Shown piece after piece: positions 21,313 to 28,897 of a DNA stretch of 38,476 nucleotides. The stretch comes from Chromatiales bacterium (GTDB lineage: Bacteria; Pseudomonadota; Gammaproteobacteria; Steroidobacterales; Woeseiaceae): NCBI GenBank assembly GCA_004282875.1, contig SHLT01000014.1:1-38476 (forward strand), read 5' to 3'. Each line of letters begins with the position of its first letter. The first letter of the stretch is position 1. A program made the translations under genes and the position numbers. The notes beneath the pieces were generated by a model that saw only the letters and a program-made list of their open reading frames with translations, ran no database searches and was not told the DNA's origin.

Positions 21313-22779
21313 ATGGATTTCACGACAATCTTTGAGTCGCTACAGGCAACGCTGGGCAATACGCTGCCTACCTTGCTCGCCGCCCTGGGTATTCTCACAG
21401 TTGGCTGGCTCGTAGCCGTGGTGTTCCGCGCGGGTACGCGGCGCTTACTCGACATGGCCAATCTGAATGAGCGAATCGCGAGCAACACGGACAGCGAGAT
21501 CGATGCCGAGTCCTGGGGCGCCACCGGCGTTTTCTGGGTGGTTATGTTCCTCGTCCTTATTGCATTCTTCAATGTACTCGACCTGGAGATTGTCTCCGAA
21601 CCATTGCGTGCGCTGGTTACCAAGGTGTTCGAGTTCGGACCGAGCCTGTTCGCAGGCGCAGTCCTCGCGCTATTGGCCTGGGTATTGGCAAATGTGGTGC
21701 GTTCGCTGACGACGAAGGCGCTGTCCAAGACGACGCTTGACGAGAAAGTCAGCGCAGCTGCCGAAATGAAACCGGTTAGCGACAGTATTGGCGATGTCCT
21801 TTACTGGCTGATCATGCTGATGTTCCTGCCAGCGATTCTCGGCACCCTGAAAATGGACGGCCTCCTCGTCCCCGTACAAGGCATGGTCGACAAGATCCTC
21901 GGCATGCTCCCGAATATATTCGCCGCGGCGGTCATCGGCCTGGTGGGCTGGTTTGTCGCCCGCATACTGCGTGACCTCGTACAGAACTTGCTCCAGGTTG
22001 TCGGCTTCGATCGCCTTGGTGAGAAAGCGGGCCTGAGCGGCAACGTCAGCCTCTCGCAGCTAAGCGGTCTGCTGGTATTTGTATTTGTCTTTGTCCCGGC
22101 ATTGGTCGCAGCTCTGAATACGTTGCAGATCGAGGCGGTCTCAGGACCTGCGACGCAAATGCTCAGCGCATTCATGGCCGCAATACCCGACATCTTTGCT
22201 GCCGTAATCATACTCAGCATCGCGTTCGTCATTGCGCGATTCCTCTCCAGCCTGGTTTCTCGCATGCTCGATGGACTTGGCGCCAACGATCTTCCGGAAA
22301 AAATCGGAATTGCATCCACGAAAGCCGACGGTTTCTACCTGTCGCACTTCGTGGGCCGCGTGGTTAGCGTGTTTATCATGCTGTTCGCCGGTGTGGAGGC
22401 CGCCAATCGACTCGGATTCGCGCAGGTTTCGGACCTGGTCTCAACGTTGATCGAGTTCGCCGGACAAGTACTGCTCGGCGGGATTATCCTGGCTGCCGGC
22501 TTCTGGATCGCTGGCATCGCTCATGCTGCTGTCATCCGCGTCAGCGGTGAGTCCGCAACCGGTCTCGCGGGAATTCTGCGAGCCGCTATCCTCGGACTTG
22601 TCCTGGCGATGGGCCTGCGCGCGATGGGCATAGCTGATGATATCGTCAACCTGGCGTTTGGACTCGTGCTTGGCTCGATCGCCGTTGCGTTTGCACTGTC
22701 GTTCGGCCTCGGCGGCCGCGAGGCTGCCGGCAAGCAAATGGAACACTGGCTCTCGCAACTTCGTAAGGATGGCGACTAG
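21313..22779 (+). CDS. CmpX-like TM-helix-repeat membrane protein (mechanosensitive-channel related)
   Basis: 488 residues. Five repeats of a conserved membrane helix are visible, each with a P/G-x-hydrophobic-A-x-x-hydrophobic-G/A-x-x-A pattern, for example LPTLLAALGILTVGWLVA, GPSLFAGAVLALLAWVLA, LPNIFAAAVIGLVGWFVA and IPDIFAAVIILSIAFVIA. This is the TM_helix family that includes Pseudomonas CmpX, usually annotated with MscS-type channels. I see no MscS beta domain at the C terminus, so channel activity is not certain. An AAGGAG ribosome binding site lies seven bases before the ATG. The next gene (Hpt) starts 15 bases downstream, so it may be co-transcribed with the phosphorelay genes. Confidence 0.85.
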   Translation: MDFTTIFESLQATLGNTLPTLLAALGILTVGWLVAVVFRAGTRRLLDMANLNERIASNTDSEIDAESWGATGVFWVVMFLVLIAFFNVLDLEIVSEPLRALVTKVFEFGPSLFAGAVLALLAWVLANVVRSLTTKALSKTTLDEKVSAAAEMKPVSDSIGDVLYWLIMLMFLPAILGTLKMDGLLVPVQGMVDKILGMLPNIFAAAVIGLVGWFVARILRDLVQNLLQVVGFDRLGEKAGLSGNVSLSQLSGLLVFVFVFVPALVAALNTLQIEAVSGPATQMLSAFMAAIPDIFAAVIILSIAFVIARFLSSLVSRMLDGLGANDLPEKIGIASTKADGFYLSHFVGRVVSVFIMLFAGVEAANRLGFAQVSDLVSTLIEFAGQVLLGGIILAAGFWIAGIAHAAVIRVSGESATGLAGILRAAILGLVLAMGLRAMGIADDIVNLAFGLVLGSIAVAFALSFGLGGREAAGKQMEHWLSQLRKDGD

Positions 22780-22794
22780 CAGCCCGATTCCCGT

Positions 22795-23172
22795 ATGCCT
22801 CTGTTACCTTGGCACGTAACACGAGCGCTTACAGAGACCGGACGAAACGTTGAAGTGGTGAATGGCGTGAACCCGAAGAAAACTATTCCAATAGAAATAG
22901 CCGACCCGTTTGCGCGCAAGCTGGTCGGTCAGTATCTCGAAAATCGCGAGAGCGATATTCAGAAGCTGCGAGAGGCGCTCCGGCTTCATGACTTCGATGC
23001 GATTCGCGTAACCGGCCACAACCTGTTCGGCTCGGGGTCGGCCTATGGTCTGGACGAGGTGTCGCGAATTGGCGCGCGCCTCGAACAGGCCGCCAGCGAG
23101 CAGGGTTCCGAAGAAATATGCCGCCTCGTCGCCGAGCTGGCCGACTACCTGCGCGACGTCGATGTGCACTAG
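22795..23172 (+). CDS. Stand-alone histidine phosphotransfer (Hpt) protein
   Basis: 125 residues if the ATG at 22795 is used. No ribosome binding site is evident there, and GTG codons at 22855 and 22858 are possible starts that still keep the whole domain. The four-helix Hpt pattern begins near residue 33; the phospho-acceptor is H75 in VTGHNLFGSGSAYG (codon 23017-23019), followed by the usual small residues and the helix LDEVSRIGARLEQAA. Hpt proteins pass phosphate between the receiver of a hybrid kinase and a response regulator. A hybrid kinase (26813-28363) and a DNA-binding regulator (23272-23973) in the same gene group are the natural partners. Confidence 0.88.
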   Translation: MPLLPWHVTRALTETGRNVEVVNGVNPKKTIPIEIADPFARKLVGQYLENRESDIQKLREALRLHDFDAIRVTGHNLFGSGSAYGLDEVSRIGARLEQAASEQGSEEICRLVAELADYLRDVDVH

Positions 23173-23271
23173 CGCACAAAACGGATCGGCAATTCGATGT
23201 AATGTTCTGTGAATTGCTAAGTACTTGTGCACCATCGCGGTATACTCATGCGGCAGCCCGAGGGCATGCGC

Positions 23272-23973
23272 ATGGGGGTTATATTGCGAGTCGCGATACT
23301 TGAGGACGATGCCGATCAGGCCGAATTGACGCGCCGCTGGCTGACCAACGCCGAATACTCGGTCGACTGTTACCCGGATGCCGGCAGTTTTCTCCGGGCT
23401 GTTCGACGCGAAAGCTTTGATCTGTATGTGCTCGACTGGGTGCTACCGGACCTGAGCGGCATCGAAGTTCTGCAAAAATTGCGTGCCGAGATGGCCGACT
23501 TTACACCGGCTGTCATTGCTACGGCGAAGAACGAAGAGCAGAGCATCGTTCGAGGTCTTGAGGCCGGTGCGGACGACTACCTGGTCAAACCAATCAGGCA
23601 GGCCGAACTCGTCGCCAGGCTTGGCGCAATATATCGTCGTGCCGGCATCGTGCCTGGCGGCAATCAACTCGAGGTGTCGCCGTACTCGTTGAACACGAGC
23701 GGTAAGTCGATTGAGTTACGCGGCGACGCCATTAACCTGACGAACAGGGAGTTCGAGCTCGCGTATTTCCTGTTTCGGAATGCCGGGAAAATGTTGTCGC
23801 GCAGCCATATCCTCGAGACAATCTGGGGAATAGACAACAAGTCTGTATCGACCCGGACAGTAGACACACACATGAGTCGCCTGCGCAAGAAACTCGACCT
23901 GTGCGACGAAAATGGCTGGAAACTATCGGCGATATACCAACACGGCTATCGACTGGAGAGAATCAATAGTTAG
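23272..23973 (+). CDS. OmpR-family response regulator
   Basis: 233 residues from the ATG at 23272 (MGVILRVAILEDD), chosen because CGAGGG lies about seven bases upstream; ATGs at 23248 and 23266 are in frame. The receiver domain has acidic pair D12-D13, phospho-acceptor D55 (DLYVLDWVLPD), a conserved threonine in IATAKN and lysine in YLVKP. Residues ~130-230 are a winged helix of the OmpR/PhoB class (LTNREFELAYFLFRNAGKMLSRSHILETIWG, then RTVDTHMSRLRKKL). It is expected to bind tandem direct repeats on DNA once phosphorylated. It follows the Hpt gene by 99 bases, a gap holding a TATACT box at 23241-23246, so it may have its own promoter. Confidence 0.92.
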   Translation: MGVILRVAILEDDADQAELTRRWLTNAEYSVDCYPDAGSFLRAVRRESFDLYVLDWVLPDLSGIEVLQKLRAEMADFTPAVIATAKNEEQSIVRGLEAGADDYLVKPIRQAELVARLGAIYRRAGIVPGGNQLEVSPYSLNTSGKSIELRGDAINLTNREFELAYFLFRNAGKMLSRSHILETIWGIDNKSVSTRTVDTHMSRLRKKLDLCDENGWKLSAIYQHGYRLERINS

Positions 23974-24012
23974 AGCAACCCTGAGAGGTGGTTGCCAGAG
24001 GAAGAGAAGAGC

Positions 24013-24573
24013 ATGGCAAAGAAGCAAACTCGAAAGGCACCCGAGGTAGACCTCGATACTACTGAGGGCAATGTCGACAAGATCCGTGAGATCCTCTTCG
24101 GTGGGCAAATGCGCGACTACGAGCAGCGATTCGCCGATCTCGAAGATCGATTAACTCGCAGCATTGAAGTCATGTCCAAGAACCTGGAAAAGCGCGTCGA
24201 TCGGCTTGATACCTACGCGAAGCGCGAACTGGACAAGCTGGGCGACCAGTTCAAGGAAGAGCGGCAGGCGCGCCGCAAAGACGAAAAGTCGAGTGCCCGG
24301 GAACTCAAGGAACTATCGAAGCAAGTGGAATCCTGGTGCGCCGAGCTCGAGGAAGGAATCGAATCCGAGTCACAGACGCTGCGCCGCAGCCTGCAGGAGC
24401 AAAGCGAAGAACTGTCGGGCATGGTCAGTGACGTGCACGACCAGCTGAGCAAGTCTCTAAGCGGCGAAACCCGCAACCTCGCGGATGCAAAACTCGCCCG
24501 CGAAGACATGGCCGATCTGCTCGCGGAAATGGCCTTGCGACTCAAGAAGGATCTGAAGCTGCCTGACGCTTAG
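24013..24573 (+). CDS. Coiled-coil protein of the GTPase operon
   Basis: 186 residues from the ATG at 24013, which follows a GAGGAAGAGAAG purine run; an in-frame TTG at 23992 is less likely. After a basic tail, residues 24-40 read IREILFGGQMRDYEQRF, and from about 40 to 175 the protein is almost pure heptad coiled coil, rich in Glu, Lys and Arg, with one cysteine and one tryptophan (VESWCAEL). No signal peptide or membrane segment, so cytosolic. The L-x-E-L-L-F-G-like motif recurs at the very N terminus of the OmpA protein encoded 24 bases downstream, which suggests a shared binding surface. No function is known to me; a scaffold between signalling partners is a guess. Confidence 0.8.
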   Translation: MAKKQTRKAPEVDLDTTEGNVDKIREILFGGQMRDYEQRFADLEDRLTRSIEVMSKNLEKRVDRLDTYAKRELDKLGDQFKEERQARRKDEKSSARELKELSKQVESWCAELEEGIESESQTLRRSLQEQSEELSGMVSDVHDQLSKSLSGETRNLADAKLAREDMADLLAEMALRLKKDLKLPDA

Positions 24574-24597
24574 GCGGGGATCTTTTGCGATACGCCA

Positions 24598-26292
24598 ATG
24601 AGTGACCTCGAGCAGTTAAAAGAACTATTGTTCGGTGCGGAGAAACAGGCACTGGACTCGATCGCGGCGCGCGTCGAACGCCGCGAGGTCCGTACGACCG
24701 ATGTTGCGGACGTCCTGCCCGAAGCGATATACCAGAGCCACCAGCAAGGTGACGATCTCGTAGACTCGCTTACCGAGCCCGTAGGCGAATGCCTGCAGCA
24801 AGCCTTCAAGGACGACCCGCAAACGTATGGTGACGCGCTGTACCCGGTTATGGGACCGGCCATTCGAAAGTCGATCATGCACGCGTTGCGCAACTTCGGA
24901 CAGCAGATCAATACCGCAGTCGAGCACAGCTTCACTCCTCGAGGACTCAAGTGGCGCTGGCAGGCATCGCGGGCCGGCGTGCCGTTTGGTGAGTTCCTGT
25001 TGCAGCAGACGTTGCAGTTCAGGGTTGAGCAGGCCTACCTGATAAGCCGGGAGAACGGTCTCCTGATCGCGCATGTCCACCACGACGCCGCAAAGATCAA
25101 GGACAGTGACGCAGTCTCGGCCATGTTTACGGCCATCCAGGATTTCGTAAAAGAATCGTTTTCACCCGATCGCACGGGTCGCCTGGAATCGGCCGACATG
25201 GGTGACTTCACATTGTGGGCAGTGCATGGCCCGCATGCACTGCTCGTTTGTGTCATCCGTGGTGTGCCACCGAAACGTCTGCGAGGCGATCTCAGCGCAA
25301 TCCTCGAACGGCTGCACTTCCGCTACGGCGACGCGATTCGCGACTATAAGGGCGACACATCGACCGTACCGGACGTGGACGACGACCTTATGCGTTGCCT
25401 GCGATTCGAGGCGCACGTGGAGCCCGTAAGCAAGAACCGCAAACCGCTGTTTTGGTTTATTGGGCTGGCACTGATAGCCGCCATCGCATTTTTCGGCTAT
25501 CGGAGCTGGCTTGCCGAACGTCAGCTCGAGCAGTTCTCGGCTGCGCTGCAGGCGACGCCGGGCATACACCTGACCGAGATCAGCCGCGATGACGGCATGA
25601 TCCAGCTTCGTGGTCTCCGCGATCCACTTGCGCAGACCGTCGCCGAGGTGGCGTCACAAGTGGATATCCCCATCGACAGTGTCACTGCTGTCATGCGCCC
25701 CTTCCAATCGCTTGAGCCGACGCTTATCGAAGCGCGCGCCCGAGAATTATTCGGCACCGTAGACACGATCGAGCTTCACCTGGTGGACGACGTTCTGGTT
25801 GTGAACGGCAGTGCCGAATCGGAATGGCTGAATGATTTCCAGGCGCGATACTCCCAGCTCGCCGGGGTCAGGGCGATCGATACGCGCGGGGTCGTCAATT
25901 CCGCTGCGGATCGACTTCGCCAGCGTGTCGCCGAACTCGACGACAAGGCGTTCTTTTTTGAGAATGGCATTGAGTTTGCCACGGGCCAGCGCGATACTTT
26001 TCTGGCGCATGCCGCCGCGCTTGCCGAGCTGAGTGATGCCGCGCGTCAGAACGGATTCGAACTCACACTGGCGGTACACGGCACGACCGACGCGATAGGC
26101 AGTGTCGAATCGAACCGGCTGCTGGCGCGGCAACGCGCGGCGGCAATCGGCACAATGCTTACCGATGCCGGCCTGACAGTAAAGGACATCGAAATCAGTG
26201 TGCCGACGGCTGGAGACCAGACAGTATCTGACGATGGTGGTCGACTCGCCCGTGTGGCGCTTTTCCTGCAGGAAACGGGCGCGCAGGAATGA
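24598..26292 (+). CDS. Inner-membrane OmpA-family protein with a roadblock/longin-like cytosolic region
   Basis: 564 residues with no signal peptide and a single membrane segment at 283-303 (LFWFIGLALIAAIAFFGY). Residues 1-45 hold LKELLFG and an acidic/basic helix ending DVADVLPEAI. Residues ~140-245 alternate strand and helix (VEQAYLISRENGLLIAHV, a helix, then FTLWAVHGPHALLVCVIRG and a final helix), which looks to me like a roadblock/longin fold. Beyond the membrane, 305-435 resemble BON-type domains and 450-558 are an OmpA peptidoglycan-binding domain with HGTTDAIG (D498) and RQRA (R513). The topology links cytosol to cell wall. Its stop overlaps the GTPase start by 4 bases (ATGA), so the two are made together. 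Roadblock identity is inferred, the rest is well supported. Confidence 0.85.
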   Translation: MSDLEQLKELLFGAEKQALDSIAARVERREVRTTDVADVLPEAIYQSHQQGDDLVDSLTEPVGECLQQAFKDDPQTYGDALYPVMGPAIRKSIMHALRNFGQQINTAVEHSFTPRGLKWRWQASRAGVPFGEFLLQQTLQFRVEQAYLISRENGLLIAHVHHDAAKIKDSDAVSAMFTAIQDFVKESFSPDRTGRLESADMGDFTLWAVHGPHALLVCVIRGVPPKRLRGDLSAILERLHFRYGDAIRDYKGDTSTVPDVDDDLMRCLRFEAHVEPVSKNRKPLFWFIGLALIAAIAFFGYRSWLAERQLEQFSAALQATPGIHLTEISRDDGMIQLRGLRDPLAQTVAEVASQVDIPIDSVTAVMRPFQSLEPTLIEARARELFGTVDTIELHLVDDVLVVNGSAESEWLNDFQARYSQLAGVRAIDTRGVVNSAADRLRQRVAELDDKAFFFENGIEFATGQRDTFLAHAAALAELSDAARQNGFELTLAVHGTTDAIGSVESNRLLARQRAAAIGTMLTDAGLTVKDIEISVPTAGDQTVSDDGGRLARVALFLQETGAQE

Positions 26293-26813
26293 CGCCCGTT
26301 ACGAGCAAGATCTGTGTTGTCGGGGATTTTGCGGTTGGCAAGACCAGCGTCGTCGAACGCTTCGTCAGCAATCATTTTTCGGACAAGTACCTGAGCACGG
26401 TCGGCGTCAAAATCGATACCAGGGACGTGGAGATCGACGATCTCCAGGTCAGCCACAAGCTCGTGATCTGGGATGTCGCCGGGGCAGACCAATTTGGGGA
26501 ACGCGAGTTCTCCTATCTTCGCGGTGCAAGCGGCTTCATTTTTGTCGCCGACGGCACCCGTGCCCTGACCTTGCGGTCTGCAGAGAATCTGCGAGCGCAG
26601 ATTTGCGAACGCTACGACGAAGCACCTGCCGTAATGCTGGTCAACAAGAAAGATCTGGTCGCCGATTATCACCTCAGCGAGGAACGTAGGGAAAAACTGC
26701 AGACTTCGTTTGACAGCGTCTACTCCACCAGCGCGAAGACGGGTGAAGATGTCGATGACGCCATGCAGCGCCTCTCGCGCCTGATCATCAACCGGGACAT
26801 ACAGGGCAGATAG
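26289..26813 (+). CDS. Rab-like small Ras-superfamily GTPase
   Basis: 174 residues, the size of a lone Ras-type G domain. G1 is GDFAVGKTS (12-20); switch I threonine is T37 in YLSTVGVKID, as in Rab proteins; G3 is WDVAG (61-65); G4 is NKKD (119-122); G5 is TSAKTG (147-152). The residue after the G3 glycine is alanine (A66) where Ras and Rab have the catalytic glutamine, so intrinsic hydrolysis may be slow or need a partner. The C terminus (RDIQGR) has no cysteine for prenylation. The gene overlaps the OmpA gene by 4 bases and the kinase gene by 1 base, so it is locked into the same translational unit. It most likely switches between the OmpA protein's cytosolic domain and the kinase. Confidence 0.93.
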   Translation: MTPVTSKICVVGDFAVGKTSVVERFVSNHFSDKYLSTVGVKIDTRDVEIDDLQVSHKLVIWDVAGADQFGEREFSYLRGASGFIFVADGTRALTLRSAENLRAQICERYDEAPAVMLVNKKDLVADYHLSEERREKLQTSFDSVYSTSAKTGEDVDDAMQRLSRLIINRDIQGR

Positions 26814-28363
26814 TGGAACTACCCCCGCTTGTTATCGGTTACTTGCAGGGTACCTATCTGGAGCAGGCGCGCCCGTTTTGCGCATTGCTCGATGAGAACT
26901 ATCGCCTCGTCAGCAAATGGGGCGAGGCCGATTGGTGTGGTTTTGACGAAGCCACCGTGGGCACGGACGTTCGTGATATTGCCCCGTTTCTGGTCGGCAT
27001 TCCCCTTGATGAGAAGCTCGCGTTCGACTTCCTGGAGCTACCGGGTGGTGCAATAGTCAGCGCGCACATCATCCCGCAGCATGGCGAAACCTACGTCCTG
27101 ATCCTGGACGTACACGGCAACCACGCGTCGGTTCAGTCGCAACAGCAAGCCGTGAACGAGCTGCGACTTCTGCAGAGCCGGCAGCAGCGCCTGATTTCCC
27201 GACAACGCGAACTCATCAGCGAGCTTGTGGAGGCGAAGGCGTCGCTGGACCACCAACGCCGCGAGACGGAGCGCGTCAGCAACAACAAGAGTCGCTTCAT
27301 GGCAATGATGTCGCATGAGTTCCGCACGCCGTTGTCATCGATCATAAATTACGCGCAACTTGCCGCCGATCCCGCTAGCGGCGACAACGACGTGCAAAAG
27401 GGTGTCGAGACCATAGTTCGATCCGCAAAGCACCTGAACTCGCTGGTCGAGGCTATTCTCGACGACGCCAGCCTTGATGCCGGACAAATCGAACTCGTCA
27501 ACCAGGATTTCGATTTGTACGAGTTATTGGGCGACATTGCCGCCATGATGGCGCCAATGGCCGCCGAGAAGGGAGTGTCGTTCGCCGTCCGTCTCGATGA
27601 CGATGTTCCCTCAATCGTGCATGCCGACGAAACGCGGCTGCGACAAGTCCTGATTAACCTGCTTGGTAACGCGGTCAAATTCACCGAAGAAGGAAGCGTG
27701 GAACTACTGGTCGCCCACAACGCCGGGCGGCTCGTTGTGACGATCAGTGACACTGGACCCGGCATCAGCCTCGAAGACCAGGAACGCGTTTTCCAGGCGT
27801 TCGAACGCGGCGATCAACGGCAGCACGCCGGAGCCGGGCTTGGGCTCAGCATTACCCTGCAGCTGGTTAAGCTCATGGGTGGCGAGGTGTCATTGGATTC
27901 AGCGCGTGGTGAGGGCTGCACAGTCAGCGTTCATGTGCCTGTCGTTGCAGGTCATGGCGATATCGAAGACCGGCCCGCTGTGTTGCCCACTCCCGCCGAT
28001 GGCACTCGCGCCACCAAGGCCGTCAGCGTGCTCATCTGCGATGACGACGACGACATGGTGGCCCTGATGGAACACTACCTGCACCGGTCGGGCTATGGGC
28101 TTATCACCAGCCACGACACGGCTGAGGCGATCGAGAAAACACTCCGTTACGACCCTGATGTCGTGTTGATGGATTGCAACGTGCCGGGTGTGGGCGGCGT
28201 GGTGGCTGCCAGGGTCCTCCGTGAGCGCGGCTTCACCAAACCTATCGTTGCACTGACCGCAACGAAGCTATGCGAGGAAGAGCAGCGCGTTTTCTCGCGC
28301 TTCTTCCGCAAACCGGCGCCTATCCAGGATCTGCTTGAAGAGATCAAACGCCTCACGCACTGA
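26813..28363 (+). CDS. Hybrid sensor histidine kinase with N-terminal PAS-like domain
   Basis: 516 residues from a GTG at 26813 that shares its G with the TAG stop of the GTPase gene. Residues ~20-100 are PAS-like (FCALLDENYRLVSKWGEADW, ending YVLILDVHGNH), followed by a coiled coil (105-158). The kinase core has H168 in MMSHEFRTPLSS, N-box N282/N286, DTGPGIS (313-319) and GAGLGLSI (340-347). A receiver at ~404-516 has DDDDD at 410-414, phospho-acceptor D454 (VLMDCNVPG) and K500 (FRKPAP). There is no membrane segment, so it is soluble and must sense an internal signal or a partner protein. H168 to D454 to the Hpt protein to D55 of the OmpR-type regulator makes a complete relay. Confidence 0.92.
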   Translation: MELPPLVIGYLQGTYLEQARPFCALLDENYRLVSKWGEADWCGFDEATVGTDVRDIAPFLVGIPLDEKLAFDFLELPGGAIVSAHIIPQHGETYVLILDVHGNHASVQSQQQAVNELRLLQSRQQRLISRQRELISELVEAKASLDHQRRETERVSNNKSRFMAMMSHEFRTPLSSIINYAQLAADPASGDNDVQKGVETIVRSAKHLNSLVEAILDDASLDAGQIELVNQDFDLYELLGDIAAMMAPMAAEKGVSFAVRLDDDVPSIVHADETRLRQVLINLLGNAVKFTEEGSVELLVAHNAGRLVVTISDTGPGISLEDQERVFQAFERGDQRQHAGAGLGLSITLQLVKLMGGEVSLDSARGEGCTVSVHVPVVAGHGDIEDRPAVLPTPADGTRATKAVSVLICDDDDDMVALMEHYLHRSGYGLITSHDTAEAIEKTLRYDPDVVLMDCNVPGVGGVVAARVLRERGFTKPIVALTATKLCEEEQRVFSRFFRKPAPIQDLLEEIKRLTH

Positions 28364-28477: not shown

Positions 28478-28897
28478 ATGCTTAAGGAATTCAAAGAATT
28501 TGCCATGCGTGGCAACGTGGTCGATATGGCGGTCGGCATTATCATCGGCGCCGCTTTCGGCAAGATCATCAGCTCGCTCGTCAAGGACGTCATCATGCCG
28601 CCGATCGGGATGGTAATGGGTAGCGTCGATTTCAGCCAGCTCTACATCAACCTGAGCGACAAGGCGTACGACACGCTGGCGCTCGCACAGGAAGCCGGGG
28701 CACCGACTATCAACTACGGCATTTTCATGAACCACGTTCTCGACTTCCTGATTGTCGCGTTCGCGATATTCATGGTAATTCGTGGCATGAACAAGCTGAA
28801 AAAGAAGGAAGAGGAGAAGCCGGCAGAGCCGCCCAAGCCTTCAGAAGAGGTTCAGCTGTTAACCGAAATTCGAGACGCTTTGGGCAACCGCAGTTAA
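28478..28897 (+). CDS. mscL: Large-conductance mechanosensitive channel MscL
   Basis: 139 residues, near the family norm of about 136. It has the N-terminal amphipathic helix ([17 protein letters not shown]), TM1 with the glycine-rich pore face ([18 protein letters not shown]), the KDVIMPPIG turn, a periplasmic loop, TM2 ([12 protein letters not shown]), and a charged cytosolic bundle ending [12 protein letters not shown]. MscL opens under high membrane tension to release solutes during hypo-osmotic shock. An AGGGGA ribosome binding site precedes the ATG. The gene lies 114 bases after the kinase gene and ends in a strong terminator. Confidence 0.96.

Follow-up and report, generated by a model that had tools for sequence, protein, structure and literature searches.

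A Group 1 Rup small GTPase system in phosphorelay form, with an OmpA protein predicted to carry a longin/roadblock-like domain

Results

The stretch of DNA analysed here (the window) covers the whole of contig SHLT01000014.1 of a Chromatiales bacterium, 38,476 nucleotides long, which is contig 11 in an assembly of 3.39 Mb and 86% completeness. It encodes a Rab-like small GTPase within a set of six genes, all on the forward strand (+), which constitutes, with near certainty as regards both composition and membership, a Group 1 Rup system in phosphorelay form. Taken as a whole, the set is best explained by a pathway in which a wall-bound OmpA/longin protein sets the state of the GTPase and the GTPase gates a histidine kinase through a PAS-like domain, an explanation that we regard as the probable one.

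Open reading frame (ORF) and Pfam analysis recovered the six same-strand genes with the domains that a sequence-only reading of this DNA had given them. An Hpt phosphotransfer protein (22795..23172; PF01627, 1.8e-9), part of the conserved gene order, carries its phospho-acceptor H75 in the motif VTGHNLFG, and relatives suggest for it a later GTG start, giving 105 aa. It is followed by an OmpR/PhoB-type response regulator (23272..23973; PF00072 and PF00486), whose ORF is open from 23227 and whose phospho-acceptor Asp is D55 if the ATG at 23272 is the start, by a cytoplasmic coiled-coil protein encoded by a Group 1 Rup core gene (23992..24573, from a TTG start with an alternative ATG at 24013), and by the OmpA protein (24598..26292; PF00691). 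The GTPase (26289..26813) and a soluble hybrid histidine kinase (26813..28363; HisKA, HATPase and REC) close the set. The OmpA and GTPase genes overlap by 4 bases and the GTPase and kinase genes by 1 base, as had been read, and all four phospho-acceptors of a four-step His-Asp phosphorelay are present (4/4), namely H168 in the HisKA and D454 in the receiver domain of the kinase, H75 in Hpt and D55 in the regulator. The kinase lacks a membrane segment, also in agreement with that reading, its 19-residue Kyte-Doolittle maximum being 1.4 versus 2.0 at the single transmembrane (TM) segment of the OmpA protein.

Group 1 Rup GTPases were described in 2014 by Wuichet and Sogaard-Andersen (PMC4316618). 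In the Group 1 Rup passages of that paper, the GTPase gene is accompanied by genes for a coiled-coil protein and for a protein whose conserved domain, of unknown function, frequently precedes a TM helix and an OmpA domain; the output module encoded with them is either GGDEF/EAL or a histidine kinase and bears an invariant N-terminal Gln. The GTPase itself is described there as devoid of the G3 Gln, and it was proposed that the Gln of the output may be given to it in trans and that the set forms a membrane-signalling GTPase pathway. All four core genes seen here, and histidine kinases among the outputs, appear in those passages (PMC4316618), and the earlier statement that no pathway of this composition had been described was mistaken. 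The operon and the order of action that the sequence-only reading had proposed, from the OmpA protein of wall and membrane to the GTPase, the soluble kinase, Hpt and the regulator, agree with everything found here.

The GTPase of the window is a single domain of 174 aa, within the limit of <=240 aa for Rup proteins (PF00071, 4.2e-30, 105 bits), with G1 GDFAVGKT, G3 DVAGA, G4 NKKD and G5 TSA motifs, and its closest solved relatives are Rabs. A Gln after the DxxG of G3 is found in 0/65 GTPases, while the G3 Asp (Asp62), missing in MglA, is kept in 65/65. A coiled-coil gene and an unknown domain-TM-OmpA gene adjoin the GTPase gene, fitting the Group 1 Rup neighbourhood, and the invariant Gln of the output N-terminus is Q112 of the kinase, present in 57/57 outputs. 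An MglA-type GTPase was rejected considering that the G3 Asp is present and that no MglB was found, a search of the window's own assembly, 86% complete, having returned nothing for Robl_LC7. Features of eukaryotic Rabs are likewise missing, since there is no G3 Gln and the C-terminus, INRDIQGR, has no Cys for prenylation.

Conservation of the gene set was surveyed among the 60 genomes nearest to that of the window. The GTPase was found in 19 of them (own genome included), and exactly the same 19 have the full-length OmpA protein. The order Hpt, OmpR-type regulator, coiled coil, OmpA protein, GTPase and hybrid kinase is kept in 18/18 GTPase-bearing relatives, in two of which the contig ends before the kinase. 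Identity of the GTPase to these relatives ranges from 44 to 92%, the latter value corresponding to the closest named one (L003, an uncultured Woeseiaceae bacterium), and in some of the 18 an additional regulator gene lies between those for Hpt and the response regulator. Conservation of the neighbourhood had been named beforehand as a check able to refute the idea, which it did not; because the order is kept in all 18, a chance neighbourhood was rejected.

Beyond the order, core loci were found in 24/274 genomes of the class, 46/299 of the phylum and 13/296 of a second phylum, reached via a Saprospiraceae locus. The coiled coil-OmpA-GTPase core is constant across all three, with a few second-phylum loci in which the coiled-coil and OmpA genes are divergent from the GTPase gene. 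Most of the phylum-level matches come from one family of small genomes (f205, 1.2-3 Mb), in which every fetched, classifiable locus has a class III cyclase output. Other families of the window's order show a second response-regulator gene of ~420 aa between Hpt and the OmpR-type regulator (in our locus numbering, L067 5000-6247, L068 4842-6137, L069 3994-5250 and L071 4794-6056).

The gene 3' of the GTPase varies among loci, encoding a hybrid kinase, an orthodox kinase, an HD-GYP protein, a class III nucleotide cyclase, a GGDEF-EAL protein or a PAS-sigma-54 activator, and it is in the N-terminal part that these outputs resemble each other. For the kinase of the window, AlphaFold2 (AF2) modelling predicts here a PAS-like fold (PAS matches at Z 9.8) that runs into a long signalling helix from residue 101, the domain and the helix start being encoded at 26813..27148. 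Q112 (27146-27148), carried by this helix at the very end of that segment, is the sole invariant column among 57 output N-termini. A profile built from order-level kinases alone, with the HD-GYP and cyclase proteins held out, finds the held-out N-termini of both HD-GYP proteins (1e-19 and 4e-16) and cyclases (2e-19 to 6e-10). Profile-profile comparison gave E values of 3e-24 for the cyclases, 1e-19 for one HD-GYP group and 8e-7 for the sigma-54 activators, with Q112 aligned to a Gln each time. A constant N-terminal domain on unrelated enzymes is to be expected if they have a common upstream partner, and argues for the GTPase complex acting upstream of them.

On a quick tree of the GTPase and the OmpA N-domain, the six output states require 8 changes where 5 would be the minimum possible; certain output kinds therefore seem to have been acquired more than once. 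The PAS-like N-terminal domain is apparently duplicated ahead of the HD-GYP or kinase part at L104 (10190-11680), L109 (310-2319) and L115 (4966-6438).

The OmpA protein consists of an N-terminal LFG motif with helices, a cytosolic domain predicted to be longin/roadblock-like (residues 140-273; 25015..25416), one TM helix, and a periplasmic part that Foldseek identifies as BON-like plus OmpA. A single TM-grade hydrophobic segment appears in the Kyte-Doolittle profile at residues about 283-301 (25444..25500), with its maximum of 2.04 at residue 283 and a helix at 284-319 in the model. The OmpA-like peptidoglycan-binding domain (residues 435-560; 25900..26277; PF00691; Pal/OmpA at Z 11-12) retains the Asp and Arg of the binding motif, D498 and R513.

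The AF2 model of this protein, obtained with 50 sequences, has a mean predicted local distance difference test score of 84, and shows the domain before the TM helix (residues about 140-273) as strand-strand-helix-strand-strand-strand-helix-helix. When compared by VIA-align, the modelled domain matches the longin domain of VAMP7 (Z 13.3, root-mean-square deviation 2.5 over 118 residues), Fuzzy-Inturned and TRAPP (Z 12.8-12.9), Mon1-Ccz1 (11.3) and MglB (10.8), and in Foldseek MglB and Mon1-Ccz1 are among the highest-ranking matches (E about 3e-4). The unknown domain of Group 1 Rup systems is thereby predicted to share the longin/roadblock fold of MglB, TRAPP and Mon1-Ccz1.

Sequence profiles found no solved homologue of this N-domain, and the OmpA protein of the window had no match among curated longin and Robl_LC7 families, although the roadblock signal at group level exceeds that of controls. 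Since hhalign against the roadblock set gave a low probability, yet the best score and a collinear alignment, a ranking test was used. With a bacterial-roadblock profile, independent of the model, the OmpA proteins score far above control ORFs and shuffles and occupy all of ranks 1-17, many of them being aligned in the strand 1-strand 2-helix register. The helix DAVSAMFTAIQDFV is the most informative part: its Met176 is invariant in 50 proteins, and hhalign aligns this helix with the roadblock AAM helix.

Longin and roadblock domains are general small-GTPase platforms, and roadblock-type ancestors are believed to have given rise to the longins of Rab regulators (PMC3521125; PMC10933270). With its predicted regulator-type fold, and with its gene overlapping the gene of a Rab-like GTPase, the OmpA/longin protein is a natural candidate for a guanine nucleotide exchange factor (GEF) or GTPase-activating protein (GAP), a fold being no proof of function; the co-presence or co-absence of the two proteins in the 60 genomes is counted as support for the pathway as a whole. 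Much longer OmpA proteins, of about 890-1020 aa, occur at L107 (4085-7009), L108 (8399-11278), L176 (6918-9581) and L185 (5052-8123), and in those of L107 and L108 the N-domain is apparently split by an insert.

A short helix motif near the N-terminus, hxxhRxhLFG, was found in 63/65 coiled-coil proteins and 34/72 OmpA proteins, where shuffled sequences would give about 0.1 for either protein set, and the motif regions of the two proteins match each other with a profile-profile E of 1e-6. In the window they lie at 24060-24130 (coiled-coil protein) and 24598-24660 (OmpA protein). We infer that the motif provides a common docking or co-assembly surface of both proteins.

The relay genes follow the kind of output. 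Of 31 hybrid-kinase loci, 27 have a gene for an OmpR-type regulator upstream of the coiled-coil gene, against 0/27 loci with other outputs. The Hpt gene has an upstream position in the order to which the window belongs; in several other families it immediately follows the kinase gene. That these genes accompany hybrid-kinase outputs argues for Hpt and the regulator being the output-specific portion of the cassette.

Discussion

The favoured pathway would begin with a single-pass inner-membrane protein held on peptidoglycan by its OmpA domain, which may read the state of the wall or envelope. Its cytosolic longin/roadblock domain would bind the Rab-like GTPase and control its nucleotide state, acting as GEF, GAP or both in the manner of MglB, TRAPP or Mon1-Ccz1, and the coiled-coil protein would enter the assembly through the LFG helix that it has in common with the OmpA protein. 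GTP-bound GTPase would then dock on the kinase's PAS-like domain, gating autophosphorylation, after which phosphate would pass from H168 to D454, to H75 of Hpt and to D55 of the OmpR-type regulator, altering transcription. In addition, the Gln-less active site of the GTPase may be completed by Q112, from the beginning of the signalling helix, which would make the kinase an effector and possibly a GAP too. Eukaryotic TBC RabGAPs, which give a Gln in trans to Rabs, offer a precedent. A catalytic role in trans for this residue is the hypothesis put forward in the 2014 paper (PMC4316618, in its Group 1 Rup passages). In this scheme the composition, its conservation, the relay residues, the input domain common to the outputs and the association of relay genes with kinase outputs are observed, the folds of the OmpA N-domain and of the kinase PAS-like domain are predicted, while binding, direction, GEF/GAP activity and the nature of the signal (envelope or wall state) are what we infer. 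The mechanism outlined by the sequence-only reading thus appears plausible, and is strengthened by the conservation and the features found.

Several observations weigh against this explanation. (i) The second output subfamily (other HD-GYP proteins, orthodox kinases and GGDEF-EAL proteins) aligns collinearly but weakly with the PAS-like family (hhalign E 0.008), and the kinase pair L121 and L122 was rejected as part of it, being joined by MAFFT only, with an unsupportive hhalign E of 0.3. (ii) None of the roadblock-profile scores is significant singly (best E 0.07) and the scored OmpA proteins are mutually related; Pfam Fuz_longin_1 is matched sporadically and weakly, by 1-2 members at E about 0.001-0.003; and longin folds occur too in SNAREs and adaptors, which are not GTPase regulators. 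(iii) Q112 could equally be structural. (iv) The loci share descent, so that the association of regulator and hybrid kinase, with ~3 phylogenetically independent contrasts, is a consistent pattern and not a significant independent test, and its Fisher value is not taken as proof.

Alternatively, the GTPase may be a positional switch like Myxococcus MglA, localised by the OmpA/longin and coiled-coil proteins and recruiting the output to an envelope site without directly changing its activity. MglA and MglB set a precedent of roadblock-regulated polarity, the constant N-terminal domain of the outputs agrees with recruitment as well as with activation, and a cytoplasmic coiled coil suits a scaffold. 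Nonetheless, the PAS-like domain runs directly into the signalling helix of the dimerisation domain of the kinase, the usual layout for control of activity, and a purely positional role is considered unlikely, while deserving real attention. The direction might also be reversed, the kinase or other output controlling the GTPase as a GAP via Q112, in which case the final output would come from the GTPase acting at the envelope by way of the OmpA protein. An invariant output Gln where the GTPase has none would fit such an arrangement, which resembles the proposal made for MglA in actinobacterial conservons in the passages of PMC4316618. However, the N-terminal domain is all that the unrelated catalytic outputs have in common, and in its kinase form the system retains an Hpt and a DNA-binding regulator of its own, a transcriptional output, so that we find this reversal improbable.

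It is slightly harder still to believe that the PAS-like domain senses a ligand of its own, with GTPase, OmpA protein and coiled coil forming a separate and merely co-expressed envelope module. Small ligands are often bound by PAS-like domains, but the same domain is found on outputs adjoining the same GTPase across phyla, and the GTPase gene overlaps those of both the OmpA protein and the kinase. Control of the kinase by the OmpA/longin protein through the GTPase is consequently preferred. In a more general and rather tentative form, for which the doubts prevail to some extent, a wall-anchored TM regulator of longin type may directly control a bacterial Rab-like GTPase that drives one portable PAS-like effector domain on up to six kinds of output.

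Compared with the Group 1 Rup passages of PMC4316618, the window has the same Ras-superfamily GTPase without the G3 Gln, the coiled-coil gene, the unknown domain-TM-OmpA protein and a Gln-bearing output, and likewise no MglB. Those passages mention no Hpt gene, no gene for an OmpR-type regulator, no longin/roadblock fold and no LFG motif, nor do they name the HD-GYP, cyclase and sigma-54 outputs seen here. No later paper developing Rup GTPases was found in the collection of papers searched, nor was an earlier description found there of a form completed by a phosphorelay, of the longin assignment or of a single effector domain across several output kinds.

MglA/MglB of Myxococcus xanthus is also a bacterial small GTPase with a partner of roadblock/longin fold, but MglA is without the G3 Asp and is paired with soluble MglB, whereas here a Rab-like GTPase that keeps this Asp adjoins a membrane- and wall-anchored protein with the predicted fold. 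Among eukaryotic Rab regulators, Mon1-Ccz1, TRAPP and Fuzzy-Inturned similarly are longin-fold partners of Rab-type GTPases; these are heteromeric complexes, in contrast with the single predicted longin-like domain fused to TM, BON and OmpA parts. YfiBNR of Pseudomonas also couples an OmpA-type wall-binding protein to a cytoplasmic signalling enzyme, although without a GTPase and through periplasmic YfiR. Actinobacterial conservons (CvnA-D) encode a histidine kinase and a small GTPase together as well, the latter being of the MglA family and accompanied by an MglB homologue, and they have neither an OmpA protein nor a response regulator.

If the proposed control is true, the partnership of longins with Rabs, which is generally traced to archaea and eukaryotes, would exist in bacteria too, as a compact signalling cassette. 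The predicted longin/roadblock partner would be a concrete GEF or GAP candidate, bearing on the origin of the Rab-longin pair. The direction of the pathway becomes testable because one effector domain occurs on several kinds of output; in the hybrid-kinase form, a simple read-out would be phosphorylation of the OmpR-type regulator.

A promoter scan found nothing. The six genes are flanked on the same strand by genes for an MscS-like channel upstream (21313-22779) and an MscL channel downstream (28478-28897), which gives a hint of turgor or wall stress as the signal. A DUF4332 gene lies farther upstream, and these mechanosensitive-channel/DUF4332 surroundings are kept, wholly or partly, in several close relatives.

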